From the NCBI RefSeq assembly GCF_015265455.1, contig NZ_CP054492.1, positions 682,001-746,000 of the forward strand: a DNA stretch of 64,000 nucleotides, read 5' to 3'. Under the pieces are notes generated by a model. It did no database searches and was not told where the DNA came from. It saw only the letters and a program-made list of their open reading frames with translations. Each line of letters begins with the position of its first letter. The first letter of the stretch is position 1. Made by a program: the position numbers and the translations under genes. Positions 1-11,644 of the stretch are shown here, one piece after another. This DNA comes from Candidatus Sulfurimonas baltica. Its GTDB lineage: Bacteria; Campylobacterota; Campylobacteria; Campylobacterales; Sulfurimonadaceae.

Positions 1-153
1 TTTTGCACCTATATGATAAGCGAAGTAAATATATTTGGAGACGTAAATGAGAAAGTTTTAAACTTCATAGATTATAACCGTGTATGGGATAGTTTATTGA
101 GATTTGAATACAGCGAAATTCCAAAAGTAGGATATGTATATACCTCAATATAG
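1..153 (+). CDS. C-terminal end of an unidentified element protein (partial)
   Basis: The frame is open from the first base to the TAG at 151-153 and gives about 50 residues. There is an internal ATG at 13-15, but the frame is also open upstream of it, so the true start is probably outside the window. The stop overlaps the next gene by 20 bp, which suggests an operon. The peptide has no motif I recognise. Confidence 0.5.
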   Translation, partial: FCTYMISEVNIFGDVNEKVLNFIDYNRVWDSLLRFEYSEIPKVGYVYTSI

Positions 154-457
154 GGTATATCTATTAAGAAAAGGAATGAGAAACTTATTATTAAAACAAT
201 TAAATCACATACACAATATTCTAAGAAATAATGGAATTATGAAAGGATATTTTTTTGAATGTGATTATAAAGAATTAGAACATAAAATACTTGAATATCA
301 AATTTTAAGCAGTAAATTAATTATAGAAATTGAGAATTTTTTTATTAATTCACTTGAAAAAGAAATCAAGTTCTGGTCCAGTGAAGATATATTAAATACA
401 CATAGTGAATATATTGAATATTTAAAAGATTGTAAAAATAATTTTATGATTATATAA
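134..457 (+). CDS. Hypothetical protein of the integrative element, 107 aa
   Basis: Small charged protein, rich in Ile, Asn, Lys and Glu, with no predicted signal peptide or membrane segment and no recognisable domain. It begins inside the end of the preceding gene and ends 11 bp before the next, which has a clear AAGGAAA ribosome site. The position suggests it is part of the same leftward-beginning operon as the HTH and FtsK-like genes. Function is unknown. Confidence 0.45.
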   Translation: MYIPQYRVYLLRKGMRNLLLKQLNHIHNILRNNGIMKGYFFECDYKELEHKILEYQILSSKLIIEIENFFINSLEKEIKFWSSEDILNTHSEYIEYLKDCKNNFMII

Positions 458-468
458 AGGAAAAAATA

Positions 469-801
469 ATGTCAGCGATAATAGATAGATATATAATAAA
501 TAATGTTGAATATGACAGAAGAGTTAAATTGACAGTAGAAGACAAAAAAGAGATTAAAACAGTTTATAAAGAGGGTATATTCTCTCAAAGAGAATTAGCA
601 GAAATTTATAATGTAAGCAGAAGAAGTATTCAATTTGCGATTTCCACTGATAAATTAAAAGCAAATAAACAAAGACGTGCAGAAAGAGGCGGAAGTAAGC
701 AATATTATAATAAAGAACAAAATTCTCAAACTCAAAGAGAACATAGAAAATATAAGAAAGAACTCTTAGCTTGTGGTATTGAACTAACAAGAGTTGCTTA
801 A
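469..801 (+). CDS. Small helix-turn-helix DNA-binding protein
   Basis: 110-residue basic protein. Residues about 35-60 read as a helix-turn-helix: 'SQRELAEIYNVSRRSIQFAI' has the pattern of a sigma-70 region 4 or transposase-type HTH, in which a Ser-Gln-Arg-Glu helix is followed by a recognition helix. A lysine/arginine-rich tail follows (KANKQRRAERGG). A ribosome site (AAGGAAA) lies at about 457-463. It sits directly upstream of the FtsK-like gene, so a role as a regulator of the element or as an accessory DNA-binding factor is plausible. No family name can be given with confidence. Confidence 0.6.
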   Translation: MSAIIDRYIINNVEYDRRVKLTVEDKKEIKTVYKEGIFSQRELAEIYNVSRRSIQFAISTDKLKANKQRRAERGGSKQYYNKEQNSQTQREHRKYKKELLACGIELTRVA

Positions 802-821
802 ATCATATTAAAGGGTTTTTG

Positions 822-2942
822 ATGGCGAATAAAGAAGAAGAGTTTATAACAACGGACCGTTTATACGAGGCTGGATATTTCAATAAAAAAGGTTATTTAA
901 ACAAAAGTCTAATATCAAAAATTAGTTTTTTTTCAATTATAATCAGCTTTATTTTTTTTAATTATATTGGAATATCTGGATACTATCTATTCTTAAAAGA
1001 AATTACTTTTAATGAATTTATTAATTATAGTTTTCAAGAAGAATTTATTGCAAACTCTGCTGTATGGTGGTTTGAAAAAGCGAAAAATATTTTAGTGGAT
1101 AAAAACATAACATTTATATTTATTAATTTAATTTCTATAATGCTACCTATCATTTTTATATTTAAATGGATTAATAGTATTAGAAAAAAAGCAGAAGTTC
1201 AATCACGATTAGCCTCAAATAATTTAAACCAATATTTTTTATATAAGAATGATAAAAAAAACAACAGTTTTACTTTTAAATTAATAAAGGGAGAAACAGT
1301 AAATTTTGACGGCTTCAATAATATAAAAAATAAAGAAAATTTATGTCAATTTTTTGGATATTCAAGTATGGAAGCAAAAAGAGTAGAAGACAATAAAGTA
1401 ATAATCGTGTTTAGTAATAAATTCCCAGCAATTGATAATGAAGAGGTAAAGGAATTGAATAAAAATATAGAACAATACGCAATGGCAGGATATATGACAT
1501 TAGGTTATAGCAATATAAGCGATGAAGGTGCTATTGAAAAGAAAGTTGGAAATTTATTTATTAAATATTTACCATTAAGTGATTTAAACATTCATATAAA
1601 ATTGATTGGAGCGAGCGGGTTCGGAAAAAGTGTGAATTTTGCAACATTTTTACGAAACTTTATAAATTCATTTAATGAAATTGACACTTTATTTATACAC
1701 GATTTTAAAGGTATTGAAAGTTCAAGAATAGAAAAATTTATAGAACAATCAAGCCAAAAAGAAGAGCTTGAAAAAAGAATTATTTCTTCAACAACAATAG
1801 ATGAGTTAGAAGATATTTTAGTGAAATTGAAAGTAGTTTACGAATATAGAAGAGTAGTTATGAGTGAAAATAATTGGCTAAATTATAAAGGTGGAAAAAT
1901 TATTGTAATGATAGACGAATACAATATTGGTATGTCAGCATTAGAAAGCAAAAATAAATTTGAAAGGAAGAAAGGCGAACAAGTCGAAAGAATGATAAAA
2001 GACTTTTCAATGCTTTACAGAGCTATGAATATGTATTTAATCATAGTCGGACAATCAAATCAAGTCCAAGATAATTGGAGTTCAACATTAAATAAACAAA
2101 CTTCTATTGGTTTTTTATTAAAAACTTCAAGTTATGTAGCAAATAGTTTTTGTAGTGAAGCTTATGAAAAAGGAATTGATTGTTCAAATTTCAATAAAGG
2201 AGAAGTCTTGTATTACAATGCGAATAACTCTATATATTTTAAGTTTTTAGCGGCATATTTAAATGAAAACTTCTTGTTTGATATGGGGAGAATAAATATT
2301 ACTCAAAGAAAAGAGATTGATAATAATATGTTCAAGTTAGCAATACAATTAAAACAAAAATTAAAAAATGAAAACAAAGTATATTATGAAAAATTATTAA
2401 AAGCAGAAGAGATAAAAGAGGCAGATTATAAAAAACAAATAGACGACTTCAACGAAACTTTAACAAAAAATATTAATGAAATCAGTAATTATAAATTTTT
2501 AGTAAAAGAAAAAGATAATTTTAAATTTCTTAAAGAAGAAGAATTTGAAATTAATGAAGAAGAAGAGTATGAAACTGATAAACCAATCGAACAGCTCATT
2601 ACAGAAACAGTTGAAAAAGAAGAAATAGTTGTAAAAATAGATATTAATCCTGATTTGAGAAGCTTAATAAAATTACATAAACAAAAGAAAACTAATGAGA
2701 GCATTATAGAAGCACAAAAGATTGACAATAGTAAAATTGAAAGTGAATTTGAAGAATTTAGTTTAGAGAGTTTTGAAGAAAAAGAAAAACAAGAATTTGA
2801 AATACAAAAGCTTGAAGATATAAAAGAGAAAAAAGAAGATATGTTGTTTGAAGAATTGGAACAATTAATTAATAATAATAAAAATGAAGACGGAACTATT
2901 CATAAAATAGATGATATTACAAATCTATTAAATGACTTGTAG
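822..2942 (+). CDS. FtsK/HerA-superfamily membrane ATPase (TcpA/T4CP-like)
   Basis: A 706-residue protein. Two hydrophobic segments near residues 30-57 and 95-120 anchor the N-terminus in the membrane, as in type IV coupling proteins and TcpA/FtsK translocases. The motor domain has a Walker A GASGFGKS (263-270), a Walker-A-proximal 'HDFKG' resembling the FtsK/VirD4 'DPKG', a Walker B 'VMIDE' (about 362-366) and 'IIVGQSNQ', the sensor-like Gln motif. The C-terminal third is a long Glu/Lys coiled-coil-like tail, unlike FtsK gamma. ATG 822 is chosen because AAGGG lies 6 bp upstream; a TTG at 819 is also in frame. Within an integrated element it most likely pumps DNA during transfer; filamentous-phage Zot-type export is a less likely alternative. 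Confidence 0.75.
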   Translation: MANKEEEFITTDRLYEAGYFNKKGYLNKSLISKISFFSIIISFIFFNYIGISGYYLFLKEITFNEFINYSFQEEFIANSAVWWFEKAKNILVDKNITFIFINLISIMLPIIFIFKWINSIRKKAEVQSRLASNNLNQYFLYKNDKKNNSFTFKLIKGETVNFDGFNNIKNKENLCQFFGYSSMEAKRVEDNKVIIVFSNKFPAIDNEEVKELNKNIEQYAMAGYMTLGYSNISDEGAIEKKVGNLFIKYLPLSDLNIHIKLIGASGFGKSVNFATFLRNFINSFNEIDTLFIHDFKGIESSRIEKFIEQSSQKEELEKRIISSTTIDELEDILVKLKVVYEYRRVVMSENNWLNYKGGKIIVMIDEYNIGMSALESKNKFERKKGEQVERMIKDFSMLYRAMNMYLIIVGQSNQVQDNWSSTLNKQTSIGFLLKTSSYVANSFCSEAYEKGIDCSNFNKGEVLYYNANNSIYFKFLAAYLNENFLFDMGRINITQRKEIDNNMFKLAIQLKQKLKNENKVYYEKLLKAEEIKEADYKKQIDDFNETLTKNINEISNYKFLVKEKDNFKFLKEEEFEINEEEEYETDKPIEQLITETVEKEEIVVKIDINPDLRSLIKLHKQKKTNESIIEAQKIDNSKIESEFEEFSLESFEEKEKQEFEIQKLEDIKEKKEDMLFEELEQLINNNKNEDGTIHKIDDITNLLNDL

Positions 2943-2958
2943 AAAATGAAATTTATAT

Positions 2959-2988
2959 AAGAAATTAAGAAATTTTTTTTAATTTCTT
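2959..2988. other. A+T-only stem-loop between element genes
   Basis: AAGAAATTAA (2959-2968) is followed by TTAATTTCTT (2979-2988), a perfect 10-bp inverted repeat with a 10-nt T-rich loop. It is followed at once by TATACT (2989-2994), which could be the -10 box for the small genes starting at 3040. It may be a weak terminator for the FtsK-like gene or an operator; in such A+T-rich DNA chance is also possible. Confidence 0.3.
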
Positions 2989-3039
2989 TATACTAACTAT
3001 GCTTAATATAGAAATACTTTAAAAATCAAAGGAACAATT

Positions 3040-3300
3040 ATGAAAATTACTAATTTAATGCAATATACAAAAATAAATAAAAAAGAATTAAAGAGTATGG
3101 TGATTCAAAGACTAATGTGCAAAGACAATGAAAGTGAATATTATTTTGAACTATATCAAGAAGAGGTTCGACAAACAAATTTCGAGGATAATAAATTTGA
3201 AGAATGGCTGGAAGAAGCATATTATAATTTAGATTATCTTGAAAATTTTGAATTATTGATTTTAGAAAATATAGCAAGTAATTTGTATTATTTAGATTAA
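3040..3300 (+). CDS. Small acidic hypothetical protein, 86 aa
   Basis: The product is strongly acidic in its second half (many Glu/Asp and aromatic residues) and has no membrane segment. An AAAGGA ribosome site lies just upstream of ATG 3040. It ends 9 bp before the next gene and so probably starts a second element operon running to 9039. Small acidic proteins are common on mobile elements as DNA mimics or anti-restriction factors, but nothing here proves that role. Confidence 0.45.
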   Translation: MKITNLMQYTKINKKELKSMVIQRLMCKDNESEYYFELYQEEVRQTNFEDNKFEEWLEEAYYNLDYLENFELLILENIASNLYYLD

Positions 3301-3309
3301 GGAGAAAAT

Positions 3310-4293
3310 ATGGATAAGTATCAACAGCTTGAAAAAACAATTTTAGATTTAATACAAAACGATGATTTAGTTCAAGATCATTATGAAAAATTAAAAAATT
3401 TAGGTTTAAATATTATTAAGAATAATTTGCACTTGAAGATTGATTATAAAACTTTAAATAGCGAGTTATTAATTGATATTAAATTAGATAAAACAGCTAA
3501 ATTTATGAATTATTATGATTTAGAAGAGATTGATTATGAGATTAAAGATTTTGAATTTACTATTGAAAATATTAAAATAAACAATGAGCACAGTGGCAGA
3601 AATAATATTATTAAAAAACTCCCAGAGAGTATGAAAGAAAATTTTCAAGATAGTGATCATAAAAGTAGTAATAAAGTTATTAAAACGATTGAAGAGCAAG
3701 TTAATAGTATTTTAATAGATTTGGAAAATGAATATAAAAATGTAGGAAATAAAATTAATGAATTACTGGAAAATAATTTTAGTGATTTAAAAGACAACAG
3801 TGAAGCAGATATTAAAGAGAAACTAAAAAACTTTATTAAGAGTTATAAGACACGAAGAACAAAAAAGTTTGTTAAATACACTATTAAAAATTCTATTATA
3901 AGCAAGCAAAGAGAATACACAGATAAATATGATAAATTGAAATATAATCTTGTCAATAGATTTTTAGCCAATGGCAAAAGTGTATCATTTAGTGAATGGA
4001 GAGACTTTTTTGTTGCAAAGACATTATATAAAGAAAAGGATTTAGCTGTTAAAAAATTATTAAAAGATATTAGCAATTATGTTGAGGGAATTATAGATGA
4101 AGAGTTTATACAATTGGCAACAGAAAATTATGAATTACAAAAAGAGATGAATAAGAGATTTAATGCAGAAATAGACGACATTGTAGAAGTTGATAAGCGA
4201 AGATTGTTAAATGAAAGCTGGAAGCAATGCAAAATATTATTTAATCGTGCTGGGTTATCTCAAACAGAATTTCAAAAATTTCAAAATAAATAA
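3310..4293 (+). CDS. Hypothetical element protein, 327 aa, Lys/Glu-rich
   Basis: Soluble, highly charged and mostly helical by composition, with no motif I recognise. Residues about 130-200 look coiled-coil-like; a basic patch (KSYKTRRTKKFVK) lies near residue 180, which would suit nucleic-acid binding. A clear AAGGAG ribosome site sits upstream of ATG 3310. The gene is between two small orphans and the helicase-Rep gene, so a replication accessory role is conceivable but not shown. Confidence 0.5.
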   Translation: MDKYQQLEKTILDLIQNDDLVQDHYEKLKNLGLNIIKNNLHLKIDYKTLNSELLIDIKLDKTAKFMNYYDLEEIDYEIKDFEFTIENIKINNEHSGRNNIIKKLPESMKENFQDSDHKSSNKVIKTIEEQVNSILIDLENEYKNVGNKINELLENNFSDLKDNSEADIKEKLKNFIKSYKTRRTKKFVKYTIKNSIISKQREYTDKYDKLKYNLVNRFLANGKSVSFSEWRDFFVAKTLYKEKDLAVKKLLKDISNYVEGIIDEEFIQLATENYELQKEMNKRFNAEIDDIVEVDKRRLLNESWKQCKILFNRAGLSQTEFQKFQNK

Positions 4294-4310
4294 ATAAAAA
4301 AGAGTGAAAA

Positions 4311-4682
4311 ATGATTGCCAGGATTTATACATTGAATGAGTATTATAAAATATTTGAAGATATTTTTAATAATACAAATAATTATAAAAATAATGAATTC
4401 AGAAAATTAATTATAAGAATGTTTGAGATATTCAGAACTTATACTTATTTGGATAATGAATTAATAATTATAATCAATTCTGAAAAAGAGAAGATAAAAA
4501 TTAGCAAAAATTTATTTGAGAGTTTTAAATTCATAAGAGAATTTTTAATTGCAAAAGAGATAGTTGATAGCGAGTTTAATAATTTAAAATATTTTACTAA
4601 AAAATACCAAAATAATTTTTATAATTATTATGATTTATATGTTGTTAATAATATATTGAATGAAAAAATAGAAAGTGAATGA
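4311..4682 (+). CDS. Hypothetical element protein, 123 aa
   Basis: Soluble, Asn/Tyr/Ile-rich protein with no recognisable domain. Its TGA stop (4680-4682) overlaps the GTG start candidate of the helicase-Rep gene and lies 4 bp before that gene's ATG alternative. It is therefore probably translated together with the initiator. Many replication initiators have a small coupled upstream gene that sets their level, but that is only an analogy. Confidence 0.45.
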   Translation: MIARIYTLNEYYKIFEDIFNNTNNYKNNEFRKLIIRMFEIFRTYTYLDNELIIIINSEKEKIKISKNLFESFKFIREFLIAKEIVDSEFNNLKYFTKKYQNNFYNYYDLYVVNNILNEKIESE

Positions 4683-7600
4683 ATTAATGATTTATAAAAC
4701 TACAATTGAAGATATTGAATTTAATAGAATTGCTCTATTGGAGATACAATTATTTAAAGAGGGTAAATCATTCCAAGAGATTAACAGAGTTATAAAAGCC
4801 CAAAAAGCAGTTGAAATTATTAGTGATAAAGAATATATTATTAGTGATAAATTCAATGAGAAACAACTTGAAGCCATTCAATACAATAAGAAAAATAATT
4901 TAATTGTAAGTGCTGGTCCAGGTTCAGGAAAAACTTCCGTATTCGTTGAGAGAATTAAATATATAACTAAGAAACTCAATGTAAAGAGTAGAAATATATT
5001 AGGTTTAACATTTACAGAAAAAGCAAGTAATGAATTTAAAGAAAGAAGTGATTTAGAATTAGAATATTTGGGAACTTTTCATAGTGTGTTTTTTAAGTTG
5101 CTTCAAGAATACGGCAATTATTTTAACTTTAAAATAATGAATGAAGAGAAGAATGAATATTATCTAAAAAATAATATGAATTTACCCGAATTTGAGAAAA
5201 AAGAATTTACTACAAAAATTGGAACTGCAATTAAGTTAGATAAATTCATTAACGAGCATTTAGAGCTTGTATTAGAGTGTAATACGATTAATGAATACTA
5301 CGAGCTGTTAAATGATAAATTGACTGTTAAGACGAATTATACAGACACTAATATAATTAAAATATTTTTTGAGAAGAAAATAAAAAATAAGAAAATGAGT
5401 TTCAGCGATATTATCATATATACCTATCTTATGATTAAAAGCGATGCAGGGATACAAGAAAGATTAATTGAGCATTTTAATTATGTTCTTGTCGATGAAT
5501 ATCAAGATACTAATAATATTGTTTTAGAGATACTAAATTTAATAAGTCATAATAATTTATTTTTAGTTGGAGATATATATCAATCAATATACAGTTTCCA
5601 AGGTTCAAGTTTTGAAAAGTCGTTAACACTATTAGAAGATTTTGACGTGATCCAGTTGGATATAAATTACAGAAGCAGTAAAAATATAGTTGATTTTTCC
5701 AATAAATTTATTGATACAAATATGAAAGAGAAGTCGAATAAAATCAATGCAGTTAAAGAGAGCGGTTTAGTGGCGAATAAAAATATTAGTGTAATTGAGA
5801 ATATTAGTGATTTTACAATTCCAGAACTAATTTATAGGAGTGGCAGAGAACTTAATGAAATATGTGTTTTGGCAAGAAATAATAATCACATAAAAGAGAT
5901 TAAAGAGCAGTTCAATAAATGGAAAGTTCCATACAAATATAAGAATGAAAGAGAATTTGAATATTTTTTAGATGCAATCTTATTAATGTTTGCTGCTGGA
6001 TACGAATTAAACGATATATATTTTAATAGATTTAGACTTACTGGCGACTATACAGCTCATAATATATTGGATATTTTAAGAGTAATTGAAATGATTATGA
6101 ATAAAATGAATATAGTTGCTTATTTCTCAAATAGAGGACTTGAAGAAGATATGCAAGAGAAGTTTAAAAAGTGGAGCGATAAACAATTACAAGTTTTTAG
6201 TTCTGACAATAACTTAAATATTTATCTTGAAACACTTGAAAATAAGCTTGATTATTTTTTAGATAATGAATTATATATTGAAAAAAATGGTGTTAATATT
6301 ATGACAATACATAAGTCAAAAGGTTTAGAATGGAATACTGTTATTTTATATAATCAAGAAGATGGCATATTCCCAATCAATAGAGAAGTTGAAGAGGAAA
6401 AAAGACTTTATTATGTGGCAATAACACGAGCAAAAGAAAATCTTATAATCACAAGTAAGCATAAAATTAATAGTTTTACAAGTGCTTTAATCAATGCTGG
6501 TTATATAGATAAAATATTTATTACTAAGCAAAAAAAATATGAACTTGATTTTGCGAGTTCTCACAGTGATATAATAAAATTTACGAACCGTAATGATTTA
6601 AAAATAGATTTTATACATTTAGATTTTGCAGAGTATGAGAAAAATTATAAATCAACCAGAAGAGCTGATATTATTGAAGATACTATTAGAAGCTATAACG
6701 AACACAAGCAGAGAAATATTGTTGATAATATTAATGCTATCACGATTGAAGATTTAGAAATAATGCTTTTGGATTTAGACAGCTTCAAACAAGAACACGG
6801 GATTGATAATCTTGACCTTAAATATGCAGTCGAAAATATTGATACTGCAAGAAGTCTATTTTTTGAGAAAGGAAAAATAAACAGTGATTATATTAACAAT
6901 GACTTCACGGATATAGTTCATAAAATTATCAATTATCGCAATTGGGTGAGCGAAGAAAATATCAATGATATTTGGTTTGAAGAGAAACAAATTAAAATGT
7001 TTAAATCTATCGTAAAATTTGTAGTATCTAAAAAATATACTGATTTAACCAAGGATAGAGCTAAAAAATATATTCAAAAGAGAAGTGAGAATATTTATAA
7101 TAAAGCTAAAAATTCCAAGTTAAACAGCTATCAAGATTTTGTGAATGATATGCTTAATCAATATTATACTAAGTCAAACGAGCAAAAGAGCTTTTTTACC
7201 CATAATGTCTTAGGAATGCATAATATCAATACCAATCTTCCAATGATTGATTTAACCAATAATAGATACGATAAATTAAAAGGCTCTGTTCTTGAAGATT
7301 TTAGTATAGATGCCAATGGATATTCATACAATAGAGAGATTTTAAAAGGGAGCTTTTTAAATCAAAACAAAACTATACAAGCACAGAAAAGATGGGCGAA
7401 ATTAAAATATTTAGAATTTGCATATAGTGATAAAAGAGCTTTTTTCCTAACATTCACAAATAAAAGCATTTGGCATAAATGGAAAACTAAATATAAATCA
7501 TTGAAAGAAGATCGCAAATACGGAGACAGTTCTATTTTAAAAGATAATGAGAACTTTGTAATGCAAGGCAATAATCTTCAAGAACATTTTATTAACTCAG

Positions 7601-9039
7601 CAAAAGAGATCAATAAAATTTGGACTTATTTTTATCAAATACTAAAAGCTGATATACAAAACTATAAGAAAAAAAATAAGCTTGAAGAGGAATTTGAAGT
7701 TGGTTTTTTTAGACAATTAGAAGCACATAAGAACCTTACAAGCCACGGACATATACTATTATTTGTCGATGAAGCAGTTAAAGGTGTTGTTAAAAATTCT
7801 ATGTATAAAACTATTCAAGAATTTGGACTAAATGGTAAATTTCAAGATTTACAAGAGATTAAAAATCAAAGTGATGTTGAACCACTAAGTGAAGAAGAAA
7901 CCACTAAATTAATTGAAGAACTAATGATTTTAAACGGTAAATTAGAAACTCAAACTAATAAAAAAAATCTTAAAGGTATCAAGACAAAAATTAAAAATAT
8001 TAACAAAAGATTGAATAATAATTTTTCAATGCCATCAAGTTATATTGGGAAATATATGCTAAAAAATGCGTTTAAAAATGAGGAAGACGACCTATTGAAT
8101 AGTAAAACATTAGAGTTCTTCAATGCCTGGGAAAGTATGATTGGTAACAAAGTGAAAATTACTGGTATGAGTAATTATAAGCACACTACACAAAAACATA
8201 TTGATATTATGTATGGTTGGTTTCAAGAAAATGCACCAGAGGCGATTAGAGCAGTCAAGAGAACTGGAAAGCCTTTATACTATTGGTTGGAAAAACAAGA
8301 AATTAACGGTAATTTTACTTTTGGTTATGAAAGACAAATTAAAGAGAATTTTAAAAATTCTGATTTTATTAAAGACGTTGAATTAATTTTCAGTATGCTT
8401 AAAACTAACGAACTCACAATTAAAGAATTACAAAGTAGATTAGAGGAGAGTAATTTTAATATTAAAGATATTGAAAACGATATTTTACAAATGAAATTTC
8501 GAGAAATTATAAAAGACAGAACTGAAAATGAAAATTTTTTGTGGGAGTTGGCGACAAACTTTGTTTTAGGCAATCAAGAGAAGAGCAAATATATTAATAT
8601 TCATACAAATAAAAAACTAATTAATGCAATAGTAGCTGATAAATTAATTTGTAAATATGAAAAAACAGCTTATGTAAAAGGGATAGAAGCTTATAGAGAA
8701 AAAATGAATAATCCACATATATCTTTTGCTCCAAGAGAATGGAGTTTTAAATGGACCTCATTTAATGGAAAATGGAATTTAAAAAGTGAAGTTTATTTTA
8801 ATACACCAAATAGAAAGAGTTTAATATATGTAGAAGATATGTATATTAAAGGTTGGATTACGGCAAATGAGATTGTATCTAACAGCGAATTTGATACATA
8901 CAGCTTTTTAAAAAATAGAATGGATAAGATAAAACACTATGATAATTATGCTCCAAATGTTGATGAGGCTATGAATAATTCTTTTAAAGAAGAGATTGAT
9001 ATATTTGAATTAATGCGTGAAAATAGGTTAATAGCCTAA
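4675..9039 (+). CDS. Fusion of UvrD-type helicase with a two-tyrosine HUH replication initiator
   Basis: The N-terminal part (to about residue 620) is a full SF1A helicase: Q-motif near 61-70, Walker A GPGSGKT (81-87), Walker B DEYQD (274-278), 'GDIYQSIYSFQG', 'NYRS', 'TIHKSKGLEW' (about 545) and 'YYVAITRAKE' (about 580-590). After an unassigned middle comes a rolling-circle initiator of the phiX174/P2 GpA kind: motif I FLTFT (about 924-928), motif II HGHILLF with metal ligands H1024 and H1026, and motif III YIGKY with candidate catalytic Y1123 and Y1127. It should nick the origin and unwind with the same polypeptide. Start is GTG 4675, overlapping the previous gene, or ATG 4687; ribosome site weak. 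No stop or frameshift interrupts it, so the fusion appears genuine. Confidence 0.85.
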   Translation: MNELMIYKTTIEDIEFNRIALLEIQLFKEGKSFQEINRVIKAQKAVEIISDKEYIISDKFNEKQLEAIQYNKKNNLIVSAGPGSGKTSVFVERIKYITKKLNVKSRNILGLTFTEKASNEFKERSDLELEYLGTFHSVFFKLLQEYGNYFNFKIMNEEKNEYYLKNNMNLPEFEKKEFTTKIGTAIKLDKFINEHLELVLECNTINEYYELLNDKLTVKTNYTDTNIIKIFFEKKIKNKKMSFSDIIIYTYLMIKSDAGIQERLIEHFNYVLVDEYQDTNNIVLEILNLISHNNLFLVGDIYQSIYSFQGSSFEKSLTLLEDFDVIQLDINYRSSKNIVDFSNKFIDTNMKEKSNKINAVKESGLVANKNISVIENISDFTIPELIYRSGRELNEICVLARNNNHIKEIKEQFNKWKVPYKYKNEREFEYFLDAILLMFAAGYELNDIYFNRFRLTGDYTAHNILDILRVIEMIMNKMNIVAYFSNRGLEEDMQEKFKKWSDKQLQVFSSDNNLNIYLETLENKLDYFLDNELYIEKNGVNIMTIHKSKGLEWNTVILYNQEDGIFPINREVEEEKRLYYVAITRAKENLIITSKHKINSFTSALINAGYIDKIFITKQKKYELDFASSHSDIIKFTNRNDLKIDFIHLDFAEYEKNYKSTRRADIIEDTIRSYNEHKQRNIVDNINAITIEDLEIMLLDLDSFKQEHGIDNLDLKYAVENIDTARSLFFEKGKINSDYINNDFTDIVHKIINYRNWVSEENINDIWFEEKQIKMFKSIVKFVVSKKYTDLTKDRAKKYIQKRSENIYNKAKNSKLNSYQDFVNDMLNQYYTKSNEQKSFFTHNVLGMHNINTNLPMIDLTNNRYDKLKGSVLEDFSIDANGYSYNREILKGSFLNQNKTIQAQKRWAKLKYLEFAYSDKRAFFLTFTNKSIWHKWKTKYKSLKEDRKYGDSSILKDNENFVMQGNNLQEHFINSAKEINKIWTYFYQILKADIQNYKKKNKLEEEFEVGFFRQLEAHKNLTSHGHILLFVDEAVKGVVKNSMYKTIQEFGLNGKFQDLQEIKNQSDVEPLSEEETTKLIEELMILNGKLETQTNKKNLKGIKTKIKNINKRLNNNFSMPSSYIGKYMLKNAFKNEEDDLLNSKTLEFFNAWESMIGNKVKITGMSNYKHTTQKHIDIMYGWFQENAPEAIRAVKRTGKPLYYWLEKQEINGNFTFGYERQIKENFKNSDFIKDVELIFSMLKTNELTIKELQSRLEESNFNIKDIENDILQMKFREIIKDRTENENFLWELATNFVLGNQEKSKYINIHTNKKLINAIVADKLICKYEKTAYVKGIEAYREKMNNPHISFAPREWSFKWTSFNGKWNLKSEVYFNTPNRKSLIYVEDMYIKGWITANEIVSNSEFDTYSFLKNRMDKIKHYDNYAPNVDEAMNNSFKEEIDIFELMRENRLIA

Positions 9040-9354
9040 AAATTTCCAAACTCAATTGCGGATAGATCTATCTACACTATAAAAATTCTTATAAATTAAT
9101 TGTTATTGCCAAGTATGTCCTAATAATCTAAAATATTGCAGTGAATTTTATAGATATTTCTGCATATTTTTCGTGTTTATTTTAATATTTATTGATACAT
9201 TGTTATTGGTTTGTGAAAATATAAGGGTTGGTTAATAAGGTATTCAAGGGGCTTCGCCCTCTTTGTGCCAATACCACAACTGACGGGGAATTGGTTTATT
9301 GCTTCGCAAAAACCAACCCCACCAGATTACGGATTGTCAAACACAACCCATTCA
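9040..9354. other. Non-coding gap after the Rep gene; candidate replication origin region
   Basis: About 315 bp with no convincing gene. It contains a perfect 12-bp palindrome GATAGATCTATC (9061-9072), a repeated TTGTTATTG (near 9098 and 9199), an A+T-rich middle, and a sharply G+C-richer block of hairpins at 9225-9320. Placement beside the initiator gene and the abrupt change in composition fit an origin; a terminator between converging genes (4675 plus, 9355 minus) is the other likely role. Confidence 0.4.
9225..9320. other. Nested hairpins, candidate rolling-circle origin
   Basis: Outer arms GGGTTGGTT (9225-9233) and AACCAACCC (9311-9319) are a perfect 9-bp inverted repeat. Inside, GGTATT (9239-9244) pairs with AATACC (9270-9275) around a small GGGGC-TTC-GCCCT hairpin (about 9248-9260). 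A second hairpin runs 9285-9320: GGGG, TTGGTTT and TTGC pair with GCAA, AAACCAA and CCCC around a TTC loop, with small bulges. The right arm can pair with either partner, so two exclusive folds exist. Such structures are typical of HUH-Rep origins, where the nick site lies in or beside a hairpin. Confidence 0.4.
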
Positions 9355-9741
9355 TTATTGATTGGTTTGCTCTTTTAATTCAAGTTCTTTATTAATTTTA
9401 CTCAAATATTCAAATAAATCTTTATCATTAGTATCAAGATATATATTCAAAATTCCGTTTAGTATCCGCTCATTATCAGCATATTTTTTATGCAAGTATC
9501 TTTGTCTTTTTGCATTTTTACTTATTGAAAAATCTATTGTTTTAACAATTTCTTTTTTAACTTCAATAATCGGTTTAGGTTCTTCTTGTTTTAATTTTTC
9601 AGCTTCACTTTTTTCTGTAATCAAAGTTTTATATTTATTAAATAATGAGAAGAATTTTTCTTCTAATGCGTCTCGATCAAAATTTTTAATTTGAAGTTTT
9701 AATTTTTCGTCTTCTGTTAGTTCTTTATTTGTTCCAAACAT
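9355..9741 (-). CDS. Hypothetical coiled-coil-like protein, 128 aa
   Basis: Charged, soluble, helical protein; residues about 8-55 and 100-128 are Lys/Glu/Leu-rich with heptad-like spacing. It faces the helicase-Rep gene across the structured gap and is divergent from the small gene at 9838. An AGGAAAAAA ribosome site precedes ATG 9741. No domain was recognised. Its mirror-strand frame is shorter and lacks a ribosome site. Confidence 0.5.
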   Translation of the reverse strand: MFGTNKELTEDEKLKLQIKNFDRDALEEKFFSLFNKYKTLITEKSEAEKLKQEEPKPIIEVKKEIVKTIDFSISKNAKRQRYLHKKYADNERILNGILNIYLDTNDKDLFEYLSKINKELELKEQTNQ

Positions 9742-9837
9742 TTTTTTCCTTTCATAGTATTTGCCTATATAATTGATTATACGAAGATTTTTAAATTTTT
9801 TGTGTTAGAATAATAAATATAAATAAAAGGATATATG

Positions 9838-10020
9838 ATGTCAGACAAAATCACAGTTCAATTAACAGAAGCAGAGCATAAAGTTTTTTTGAAATTTCAA
9901 GCGGAAGAAGCTCGAAAAGAAAATGAAAAAGAGATTGCTAAATCTGAAAAAAAGATTGAAAGTCTTGAAGCTAAACTTGCCGACGAGAAAGCAAATTTAA
10001 AAGCTTTAAAGGCTAAATAA
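9838..10020 (+). CDS. Small coiled-coil protein, 60 aa
   Basis: Begins 'MSDKITVQLTEAEHKVF' and continues as an uninterrupted Glu/Lys/Leu/Ala helix with heptad spacing to the end, so it is probably a dimeric coiled coil. Start 9838 gives a 7-bp spacing from AAAGG (9826-9830); ATG 9835 is also in frame. The first residues resemble the beta-strand/helix entry of small ribbon-helix-helix or phage regulatory proteins, but the similarity is weak. It lies between the coiled-coil gene at 9355 and the integrase. Confidence 0.5.
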   Translation: MSDKITVQLTEAEHKVFLKFQAEEARKENEKEIAKSEKKIESLEAKLADEKANLKALKAK

Positions 10021-10091
10021 AATAAATTAGATACACAAATTTAATATAGCTTAGAAGTTATAAAATATAATTATAAAATAATAGATTTTTT

Positions 10092-11435
10092 CTAATATGG
10101 TATAACAGAATTTGCATTCCCAAAATTATTAAATATATTACTGTTTAATGTATTTGTATCATTAGCAAGATTTTTATTTGAGAGATTAAGATAATCTTGC
10201 GTTTGTTTAACACTACTATGATTTAATAAAACCATAATATTGTATATTGATGCTCCTTGTTCAGCTAATGAAGTTGCTATTGACCTACGGATTGAATGAA
10301 AGTTGATAACTAAATCCCTATCTTGATTATTCTGCTTGTTTAAGTTTTTATTAAATAATTTATCCATTATAGTATAGACAGTTTTAGGAACTACCGTTAG
10401 TGGTTGTGGAGGGGTTCTCCTTCTCCTTGGATCAATAGGTCGAATTAAATATTCATCATTTTCATAATTTACTAAAACCTTGGTTTCTAACCAATTTACA
10501 GCCTCGTCATTTAATGCTATTCTATATCTTTTTGAATTTGTTTTGAAATTATTTAGAGTAATTTCTTTTTTATCTATGTCAATATCTTTTTTTCTAATGT
10601 TTAATATAGTGTTAGAACGACCAGCAGTTAATACAGCGAGATATACTGATAGATAAACATTGGGATTTTTTGTGTGTGCTTTACAAGTTTCTAATAATAA
10701 TTTAATTTCTTCTATTGAGAGTGAATTTTCTCTGACTTTTTTTGGATTTTTAAAAATAGTATTTTGAAATGGGTTTTTAATATCTATGATTTGATTTCTT
10801 ATAGCATAGTTGATTATACTTTTTATTTTAGTTATAAGGTCATAAGTAGATTTTTCAGCTAAGTTCTTAGTAGGTAAATAGCTCTTAGTATATTTTAATA
10901 TATCTGATTTTAATATCTTATTCACAGGAATTGAAGCTAACTCACTGTCTCTTATATTTTTGTTATATTTTAATACTTCTTTATGTAAATTATACAACTT
11001 AGTTTGAACTACTCTATTTTCTTGAAATTCTTTTTCTTTTTTTAAATAATTGTATTTTTGTTTCAACATTATAGTCATATCTGTTTTTTTACTTTCAAAG
11101 AATAAGGCGGCTAATTCATTTAATGTTAAGTAATTTGTAGTTAAATCGTTTTCAATTGTATTTGAAGAATTATCTATAATAATTTCTTTTTCTTCTTTTT
11201 CTATTGGTATATTTACACCGTGTAAGCTTGATTTAAACTTATCCATTAAAACAAGAGCCTCTGTAATGTGCTTATTTATATGCTTATCTTTTGTCATTAA
11301 AACTTTTCGTTTAGCTTTACTGTTATTATCACGATAAGTAGCTGAATAAGAAAACTTTCCAGTATTTAATTTTTTAATAGATATTCCTTGTCCAACCGAA
11401 GTTATAGCCCCAATTTGCAATGTGTTAAAATCCAT
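10092..11435 (-). CDS. int: Tyrosine-family site-specific integrase
   Basis: 447 residues. The catalytic set is visible: R273 in 'TAGRSNT', H380-x-x-R383 in 'FHSIRRS', H406 in 'LLNHSS', and nucleophile Y415 in 'QTQDYLNL'; K299 is the likely beta-hairpin lysine. The N-terminal part holds an arm-binding-like region (about 1-60) and a SAM-like core-binding region (about 100-230). The gene points away from the tRNA fragment, with its start about 125 bp from it, as is usual for elements that enter tRNA genes. It should catalyse insertion and excision of the element between the tRNA 3' end and its copy. Confidence 0.92.
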   Translation of the reverse strand: MDFNTLQIGAITSVGQGISIKKLNTGKFSYSATYRDNNSKAKRKVLMTKDKHINKHITEALVLMDKFKSSLHGVNIPIEKEEKEIIIDNSSNTIENDLTTNYLTLNELAALFFESKKTDMTIMLKQKYNYLKKEKEFQENRVVQTKLYNLHKEVLKYNKNIRDSELASIPVNKILKSDILKYTKSYLPTKNLAEKSTYDLITKIKSIINYAIRNQIIDIKNPFQNTIFKNPKKVRENSLSIEEIKLLLETCKAHTKNPNVYLSVYLAVLTAGRSNTILNIRKKDIDIDKKEITLNNFKTNSKRYRIALNDEAVNWLETKVLVNYENDEYLIRPIDPRRRRTPPQPLTVVPKTVYTIMDKLFNKNLNKQNNQDRDLVINFHSIRRSIATSLAEQGASIYNIMVLLNHSSVKQTQDYLNLSNKNLANDTNTLNSNIFNNFGNANSVIPY

Positions 11436-11561
11436 TTACAATCCTTTAAATTAATTAGATTGATTATAGCATAAAAGACGACAAAAAGACGACAAAAAAA
11501 TGAAAAAAAAGCTATAATTGAGGAATTTATATTATTAAAGCACTTATTATATAGATATGTA

Positions 11562-11589
11562 GAGAGTTCGAACCTCTCCTCGTCCACCA
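11562..11589 (+). other. tRNA 3' fragment, probable right attachment site
   Basis: GAGAG-TTCGAAC-CTCTC forms a perfect T-arm, followed by the acceptor half CTCGTCC, discriminator A and encoded CCA. The matching 5' acceptor strand (GGACGAG), D-arm and anticodon arm are absent upstream, where the sequence is A+T-rich. This is the footprint left at one end by an element that integrated into the 3' end of a tRNA gene. The isotype cannot be told from this piece. Confidence 0.8.
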
Positions 11590-11644
11590 CTGAAGAAACT
11601 TTATTTTTTACTACACTCCCCTTAAAACAATTTTTATTCCGCAC

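Follow-up and report, generated by a model that had tools for sequence, protein, structure and literature searches.

A conserved hairpin-bearing DNA block as a putative origin of integrative elements in the genus Sulfurimonas

A DNA block of about 130 nt in Candidatus Sulfurimonas baltica recurs in integrated elements of two further genomes of the genus Sulfurimonas (G012 and G491), giving three copies in all. On balance, this block is probably the cis-acting DNA origin (dso/oriT-like) used by a group of related integrative elements, best read as a defence-carrying family together with one presumed satellite. This reading draws on the observed conservation of the block in three elements, its independence of gene context, the HUH motifs in the adjacent initiator, and the stability of its hairpins. 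The window, that is, the whole stretch of 64,000 nucleotides analyzed here, corresponds to G000:C1:682001-746000 of a 2.74-Mb genome. An earlier note on this DNA had proposed a possible origin beside the Rep gene; the conservation and the HUH-type neighbor favor that proposal, and its extent had to be revised, as the block is longer (about 9220-9352). The features discussed below are as follows, in window coordinates.

819-2942, + strand: FtsK/SpoIIIE-like ATPase with N-terminal hydrophobic stretches, 26% identity to a G012 protein
4675-9039, + strand: rep, 1454 aa, UvrD-type helicase (N-terminal) and HUH-type Y-x-x-K-Y nickase (C-terminal)
9220-9352, + strand: whole conserved block, putative origin, conserved in G491 and G012
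9220-9248, + strand: box A, TATAAGGGTTGGTTAATAAGGTATTCAAG, almost unchanged in G012 and G491 and a candidate region for Rep recognition and nicking
9225-9233, + strand: left arm of the long-range fold, GGGTTGGTT
9240-9275, + strand: middle stem-loop, with an inner hairpin at 9246-9263
9285-9320, + strand: right hairpin; 5' side GGGG (9285-9288), TTGGTTT (9291-9297), and TTGC (9299-9302), loop TTC, 3' side GCAA (9306-9309), AAACCAA (9310-9316), and CCCC (9317-9320); 3' arm common with the long-range fold
9311-9319, + strand: shared arm, AACCAACCC, whose CCAACCC core is present in each of the three copies
9334-9352, + strand: box B, TTGTCAAACACAACCCATT, third AACCC, with ACAACCC kept in all three copies
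9355-9741, - strand: small ORF convergent with rep, kept in G012 (41-46%)
10092-11435, - strand: tyrosine integrase (PF00589, E 3.4e-20)
11562-11596, + strand: att copy, the 3' end of tRNA-Ser(gct); the other copy is at G000:C1:668716-668751

The tRNA-Ser(gct) itself lies at G000 668654-668743, and the repeat of its 3' end, together with the tyrosine integrase, indicates an integrated element of about 24.8 kb. The FtsK/SpoIIIE-like product of this element had no Pfam match of its own, and its relative in G012 reached 23 bits with Pfam FtsK, just under the cut-off of 24. To the left, beyond the window (L005:4975-15109), the element has ORFs read as type I restriction-modification genes; the cargo there also includes a CBASS cyclase (NF041117, below the cut-off) together with a Dam methylase and a SLATT protein. 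Additionally, a conserved protein of 236-246 aa (46% identity; L005:15872-16612 and L015:5745-6455) is common to the window and G012 elements and weakly resembles an ORF that G201 has next to a stand-alone Rep; as a guess, it is possibly an ssDNA-binding protein. Near its integrase, the G012 element has an ORF (L008:1648-3372) that we take to be reverse-transcriptase-like with a Toprim-like C-terminus.

The gene preceding the block encodes the presumed initiator. Its helicase part matched Pfam UvrD (PF00580, E 6e-46), and its C-terminal part of about 600 aa contains, in order, an H-x-H motif and a tyrosine pair (TSHGHILL and YIGKYMLK). Two-tyrosine HUH nickases are characterized by an H-x-H motif with a Y-x-x-K-Y downstream. 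The HUH and YxxKY motifs were present in 20 of the 20 loci tested out of the 35 Rep loci returned, window and G012 included. The C-terminal part of the G012 relative (45% by tblastn) matched phrog_91, annotated as 'nicking at origin of replication' (E 1e-7), as well as Pfam GPA (0.0016) and ORF2-G2P (0.00068), each under the curated cut-off. The C-terminal part of the window protein had no GPA or ORF2-G2P match in Pfam, and the whole protein matched no nickase PHROG; the single-sequence structure model of the nickase had a mean pLDDT of 41.9, too poor to use.

Relatives of this Rep were sought with a single-sequence query, which gave matches in 2 of 149 and 4 of 398 genomes (G000 itself counted) and none in viral contigs, phages, plasmids, or genome contigs. 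An alignment query (A2) matched 21 of the 135 genus genomes tried and 16 of 397 in the class, G000 and G012 counted, and none of the viral contigs. The remaining A2 matches, mostly open frames of 363-544 codons, are read as stand-alone Reps. Stand-alone HUH-type Reps of about 440-540 codons are numerous (L021-L035, L040, L048), in genomes both of this genus and of one further genus in the family; they bear motifs such as EPHKDGTPHxHxSL and YLMKYxLKT, are possibly of the filamentous-phage type, and had no block in the flanks covered.

Alignment with related elements, which the earlier note had suggested as a check, showed the block to be conserved in both G012 and G491. The G012 layout is that of the window: rep, TATAAGGGTTGGTTAATA..TATTCAAG, a GCTTCGC hairpin, box B, and a convergent small ORF belonging to the family of the window's, with box A and the right hairpin kept though the Reps of the two elements are 45-52% identical. 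The G491 copy was first found via box A, so that its similarity in box A is partly selected. In a blastn comparison made without box A selection, of the whole G491 element against both parts of the window element, the block (window 9222-9355) was the top match (71% over 142 columns, E 4.7e-15); the second match (59% over 466, E 3.6e-8) is attributed to base composition, and no reversed control did better than 5e-6. The same comparison between G491 and G012 returned box A only (29 nt, 90%, E 0.003), which ranked second and fell short of significance. In a held-out test, a covariance model built from the window and G012 copies scored the G491 copy at 48.4 bits (E 7.5e-8), and the runner-up among 11 matches in all (8 loci, 113,035 bases) had 14.5 bits.

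In the 228 genomes of the family, the box A pattern of G012 occurred at 12 places with up to 3 mismatches; the window is missing from these because it has one more base between its box A halves. CCAACCC and ACAACCC followed within 200 nt after box A in G012, in G491:C145:2628, and in the window, and at 0 of the 10 other pattern places. A conserved box was found beside potential hairpins and in association with a Rep gene, as is looked for in a dso/oriT.

The arms GGGTTGGTT and AACCAACCC of the window form a perfect 9-nt inverted repeat. The second arm also belongs to the right hairpin, and the two folds are mutually exclusive because 9311-9319 is used by both; the arms and loops that the earlier note had described for them were all recovered. 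Its two GCTTCGC loops are likewise present (9251-9257 and 9301-9307), and this repetition is not conserved, as G012 has the loop in one hairpin and G491 has GCTATGC. Read on the - strand the loop is GCGAAGC, an unusually stable DNA mini-hairpin, which is absent from the G491 copy. The block was also correctly described as richer in G+C than its surroundings: 9225-9320 has 47.9% GC against 22.3% in the left flank, and 19 of the 11,454 windows of 96 nt in 1-11550 equalled or exceeded it, the first five and the last five of these positions all overlapping the block. In addition, a perfect 12-bp palindrome, GATAGATCTATC, lies directly past the rep stop codon (9061-9072).

Folding of the window + strand as DNA, another proposed check, gave near-equal energies with the long-range pairing forced and with box A unpaired (-17.5 and -17.9 kcal/mol); the corresponding values were -17.6 and -16.8 in G491 and -13.2 and -14.9 in G012. 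On the - strand, the hairpin fold was preferred in the window (-15.6 for the long-range fold and -18.1 with box A unpaired), in G491 (-16.6 and -20.6), and in G012 (-12.4 and -14.6). Since the hairpin fold is thus ahead by 2-4 kcal/mol on the - strand of all three copies, the near-balance of the folds is a property of the + strand.

The right hairpin of G491 has the same shape as that of the window, with the inner stem CGGC/GCCG in place of TTGC/GCAA, and G012 has TTGGCT/AGCCAA for TTGGTTT/AAACCAA. These two-sided changes preserve pairing; they were read by eye and are uncounted, because alignment A5 sets the 3' arm of the G012 hairpin one column off. The middle stem-loop of G491 has GGAGGGCACACCCTCC, and in G012 an extra CACCAACCC pairs with box A in the free-energy optimum. 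GGGTTGG of box A and the CCAACCC core are invariant in the three copies, so their pairing is without covariation support.

Shuffle tests showed which of these folds are exceptional. As DNA, the 111 nt of 9215-9325 were more stable than all 200 shuffles on both strands (z -3.15 and -3.41). The right hairpin of the window (-10.7 kcal/mol on the + strand, -11.3 on the -) was matched by 0 of 200 shuffles on each strand, its counterparts by 0 and 1 of 200 in G012 and by 7 and 3 of 200 in G491. The middle hairpin alone was unexceptional in the window (equalled by 30 and 25 of 200 shuffles) and exceptional in G491 (0 of 200), and the + strand DNA fold of the whole G491 block was unexceptional (z -1.83, 7 of 200). 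Arm sharing, meaning that one arm has both a distant partner of 9 nt and a local partner of 6 nt, arose in 7 cases when the 96-nt block was shuffled 20,000 times and in 208 of 5,000 shuffles of the entire 315-nt gap, and it occurs at three places in the 64-kb window; under a stricter definition, with a 7-nt local partner inside the arm, the real sequence fails. From the window alone, the mutually exclusive folds are therefore modestly unusual and weak evidence, and the strong evidence is conservation.

The G491 element extends from about L065:110 to 7661 (~7.5 kb), with the att repeat GCATATGTGGGG, and is arranged as integrase, 345-aa ORF, block, and ABC-3C cargo; parts of an ABC-three-component system were identified at L065:2852-5583 (CTD12 above the cut-off, MC6 and MC8 below). 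The full helicase-Rep was not found in the G491 assembly, which is 80% complete. Neither the 23 window-element proteins tried against the G491 stretch, helicase-Rep included, nor 4 G491 proteins tried against the window and G012 elements gave a match (tblastn, E 0.01), and no neighboring ORF family common to all three elements was found. These results indicate that what is conserved is the DNA itself, or its single strand. The 345-aa ORF matched no Pfam or NCBIfam family and showed no H-x-H motif; it had weak PHROG matches of unknown function and, besides itself, two weak matches in the genus, one of them near restriction-modification-like ORFs. It could be an initiator of another kind. The ~7.5-kb element, with no recognizable Rep, is presumably a satellite, replicated or mobilized in trans.

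Across the collections searched, the block was limited to three copies in one genus. A model of the block (R1) run over the 228 family genomes, with stricter filters at which weak matches are lost, found three strong copies (101-124 bits), the next match having 28.5 bits; 9 of the 228 genomes had matches at E <= 0.1, and six matches at 22.1-28.5 bits were judged from their alignments to be noise. Among 318 class genomes, the model matched two at E <= 0.001, both with known copies. In 23 of the 35 Rep loci together with L082 and L083, only the window and G012 copies exceeded 12.1 bits, and a motif scan of all 35 Rep loci found box A with the right hairpin only in these two. Exact DNA patterns of the block had 0 matches in viral contigs; a looser pattern had one, which at 13.1 bits scores as chance. 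Genome contigs contained three pattern matches, one being a Sulfurimonas MAG contig (JAMOPL010000145.1) taken as G491 C145 and the other two, at 17.5 and 11.8 bits, being no better than chance. The G491 copy as query found none in plasmids, and the window copy as query found in phages one 27-nt match (E 0.1), within a tail gene. No description of the family was found in the portion of the literature on Sulfurimonas elements and HUH-helicase fusions that was covered.

The main rival to the dso/oriT reading is a single-strand origin (sso), in which host RNA polymerase or primase would read the folded displaced strand and Rep would not act; we regard this as rather unlikely. It would account for several stem-loops with an invariant box, for the stable ssDNA folds, for a cognate Rep not being required in G491, and for a place directly after rep, comparable to that of sso1 after nicK in the sections on ICEBs1 cited here (PMC4595007). 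However, a Rep-less element moved by Rep would need a nick site as well, and box A is kept near letter for letter, beyond what a role in folding only needs. The block was also the sole DNA match between G491 and the window well clear of the reversed control. A lower probability attaches to a combined intergenic region of the filamentous-phage kind, which would hold the nick site together with a start for the second strand. A length of about 130 nt, one invariant box, and several hairpins would suit it, and the block has a likeness to the filamentous-phage intergenic region, but no coat-like genes were recognized among the ORFs looked at. Since the ICEBs1 sso directly follows a relaxase gene, both of these explanations keep some probability.

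A bistable regulatory RNA (antisense or leader) alternating between the two folds is distinctly improbable. The energies of the two window + strand RNA folds are indeed alike (-31.9 kcal/mol with the long-range pairing forced, -30.3 with box A unpaired; -38.8 and -31.0 in G491, -32.4 and -29.6 in G012), but there were 0 Rfam matches in the window at the gathering score, the RNA fold over 141 nt was unexceptional (11 and 8 of 200 shuffles as stable), and the block follows rep in two elements and lies upstream of ORFs in the third. Least credible of all is a bidirectional transcription terminator between convergent genes, a role that the earlier note had named as contrary to an origin: the ORF ends are convergent in the window and G012, but the ORF starts on either side of the G491 block diverge (2438 on the minus strand, 2852 on the plus), the block has no T-run, 0 terminator-like sites were found in 8800-10200 (a weak point, as shuffles give 0.2), and a letter-for-letter box A would be unneeded. 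Convergence in two elements and divergence in the third make a terminator less likely and favor a DNA site acting in cis.

Taken together, the UvrD-nickase fusion, the invariant box, the inverted copies of its core, and the hairpins favor a dso/oriT-like origin. In the sections cited, an initiator of such a kind requires one site for binding and one for nicking (PMC5714925), and the block would hold the latter, as had been suggested. For Rep binding, nicking, excision, the strand used, and mobilization in trans, we infer the following course. The integrase would excise the element as a circle, and the HUH domain of the helicase-nickase would recognize box A and its inverted copies and nick within or beside box A. 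The attached UvrD-type helicase would unwind the circular DNA, so that rolling-circle replication or transfer of a single strand could proceed, and the hairpins would present the nick site or re-close it. A small element without a recognizable Rep would keep the site alone and be served in trans.

The mutual exclusion of the folds may be a switch. In a fuller version, which we consider doubtful, a bistable origin would license nicking: CCAACCC would either hide the nick site in box A or fold on itself and free box A, the UvrD-HUH fusion would read this state, and Rep-less defence islands (ABC-3C, G491) would share the origin, as natural satellites of the helicase-nickase elements. As an origin, the block would define the cis site of a defence-carrying integrative family with a UvrD-type helicase-nickase initiator, and its sequence could be used to look for dependent satellites without a replication gene. 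It is also a short DNA suited to a direct cleavage test.

Several known systems resemble parts of this arrangement. Helitrons have Rep first and then the helicase, and the nickase of ICEBs1 presumably belongs to a family different from that of the window. The ori(+) of CTXphi, in the sections cited (PMC4439123), is 167 bp long with several inverted repeats, its HUH nickase cuts in a hairpin loop, and UvrD is needed. The RstA system of CTXphi is thus like the present one in its HUH nickase, an origin of comparable length, and a UvrD-type helicase, but there the helicase is a separate host protein, whereas here it is fused to the nickase, and CTXphi is a phage, whereas no phage coat genes were recognized in the window element. 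Pf phage too requires UvrD, according to the portion cited (PMC4863604). The oriT/nicK/sso1 region of ICEBs1, as far as the cited sections describe it (PMC4595007), shares with the window an integrative element, a presumed rolling-circle step, and stem-loops (three in its sso) right after the nickase gene; sso1, however, is a second-strand start, and no full conjugation machinery was recognized in the window element.

The pCRESS1-9 elements are also site-specifically integrated, with an HUH nuclease and helicase Rep and no known viral structural genes, in the part of the source cited (PMC6668415), but their Reps join the nuclease to a superfamily 3 helicase in the organization of CRESS-DNA viruses, whereas the helicase here is of UvrD type (superfamily 1) and comes first. 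The same portion describes nine bacterial Rep groups with a nuclease-helicase organization, most on integrated elements, and states as of 2019 that a helicase-fused Rep is absent from all isolated prokaryotic ssDNA viruses (PMC6668415). Helitron RepHel, in the sections cited (PMC6213432), has an HUH nickase fused to a superfamily 1 helicase as here, but Helitrons are eukaryotic transposons, whereas the window holds a bacterial integrative element with the helicase first. Finally, helper-dependent islands and satellites such as SGI1 and PICI, in the parts of the sources covered, resemble the G491 element, which is likewise small and may use the proteins of another element.
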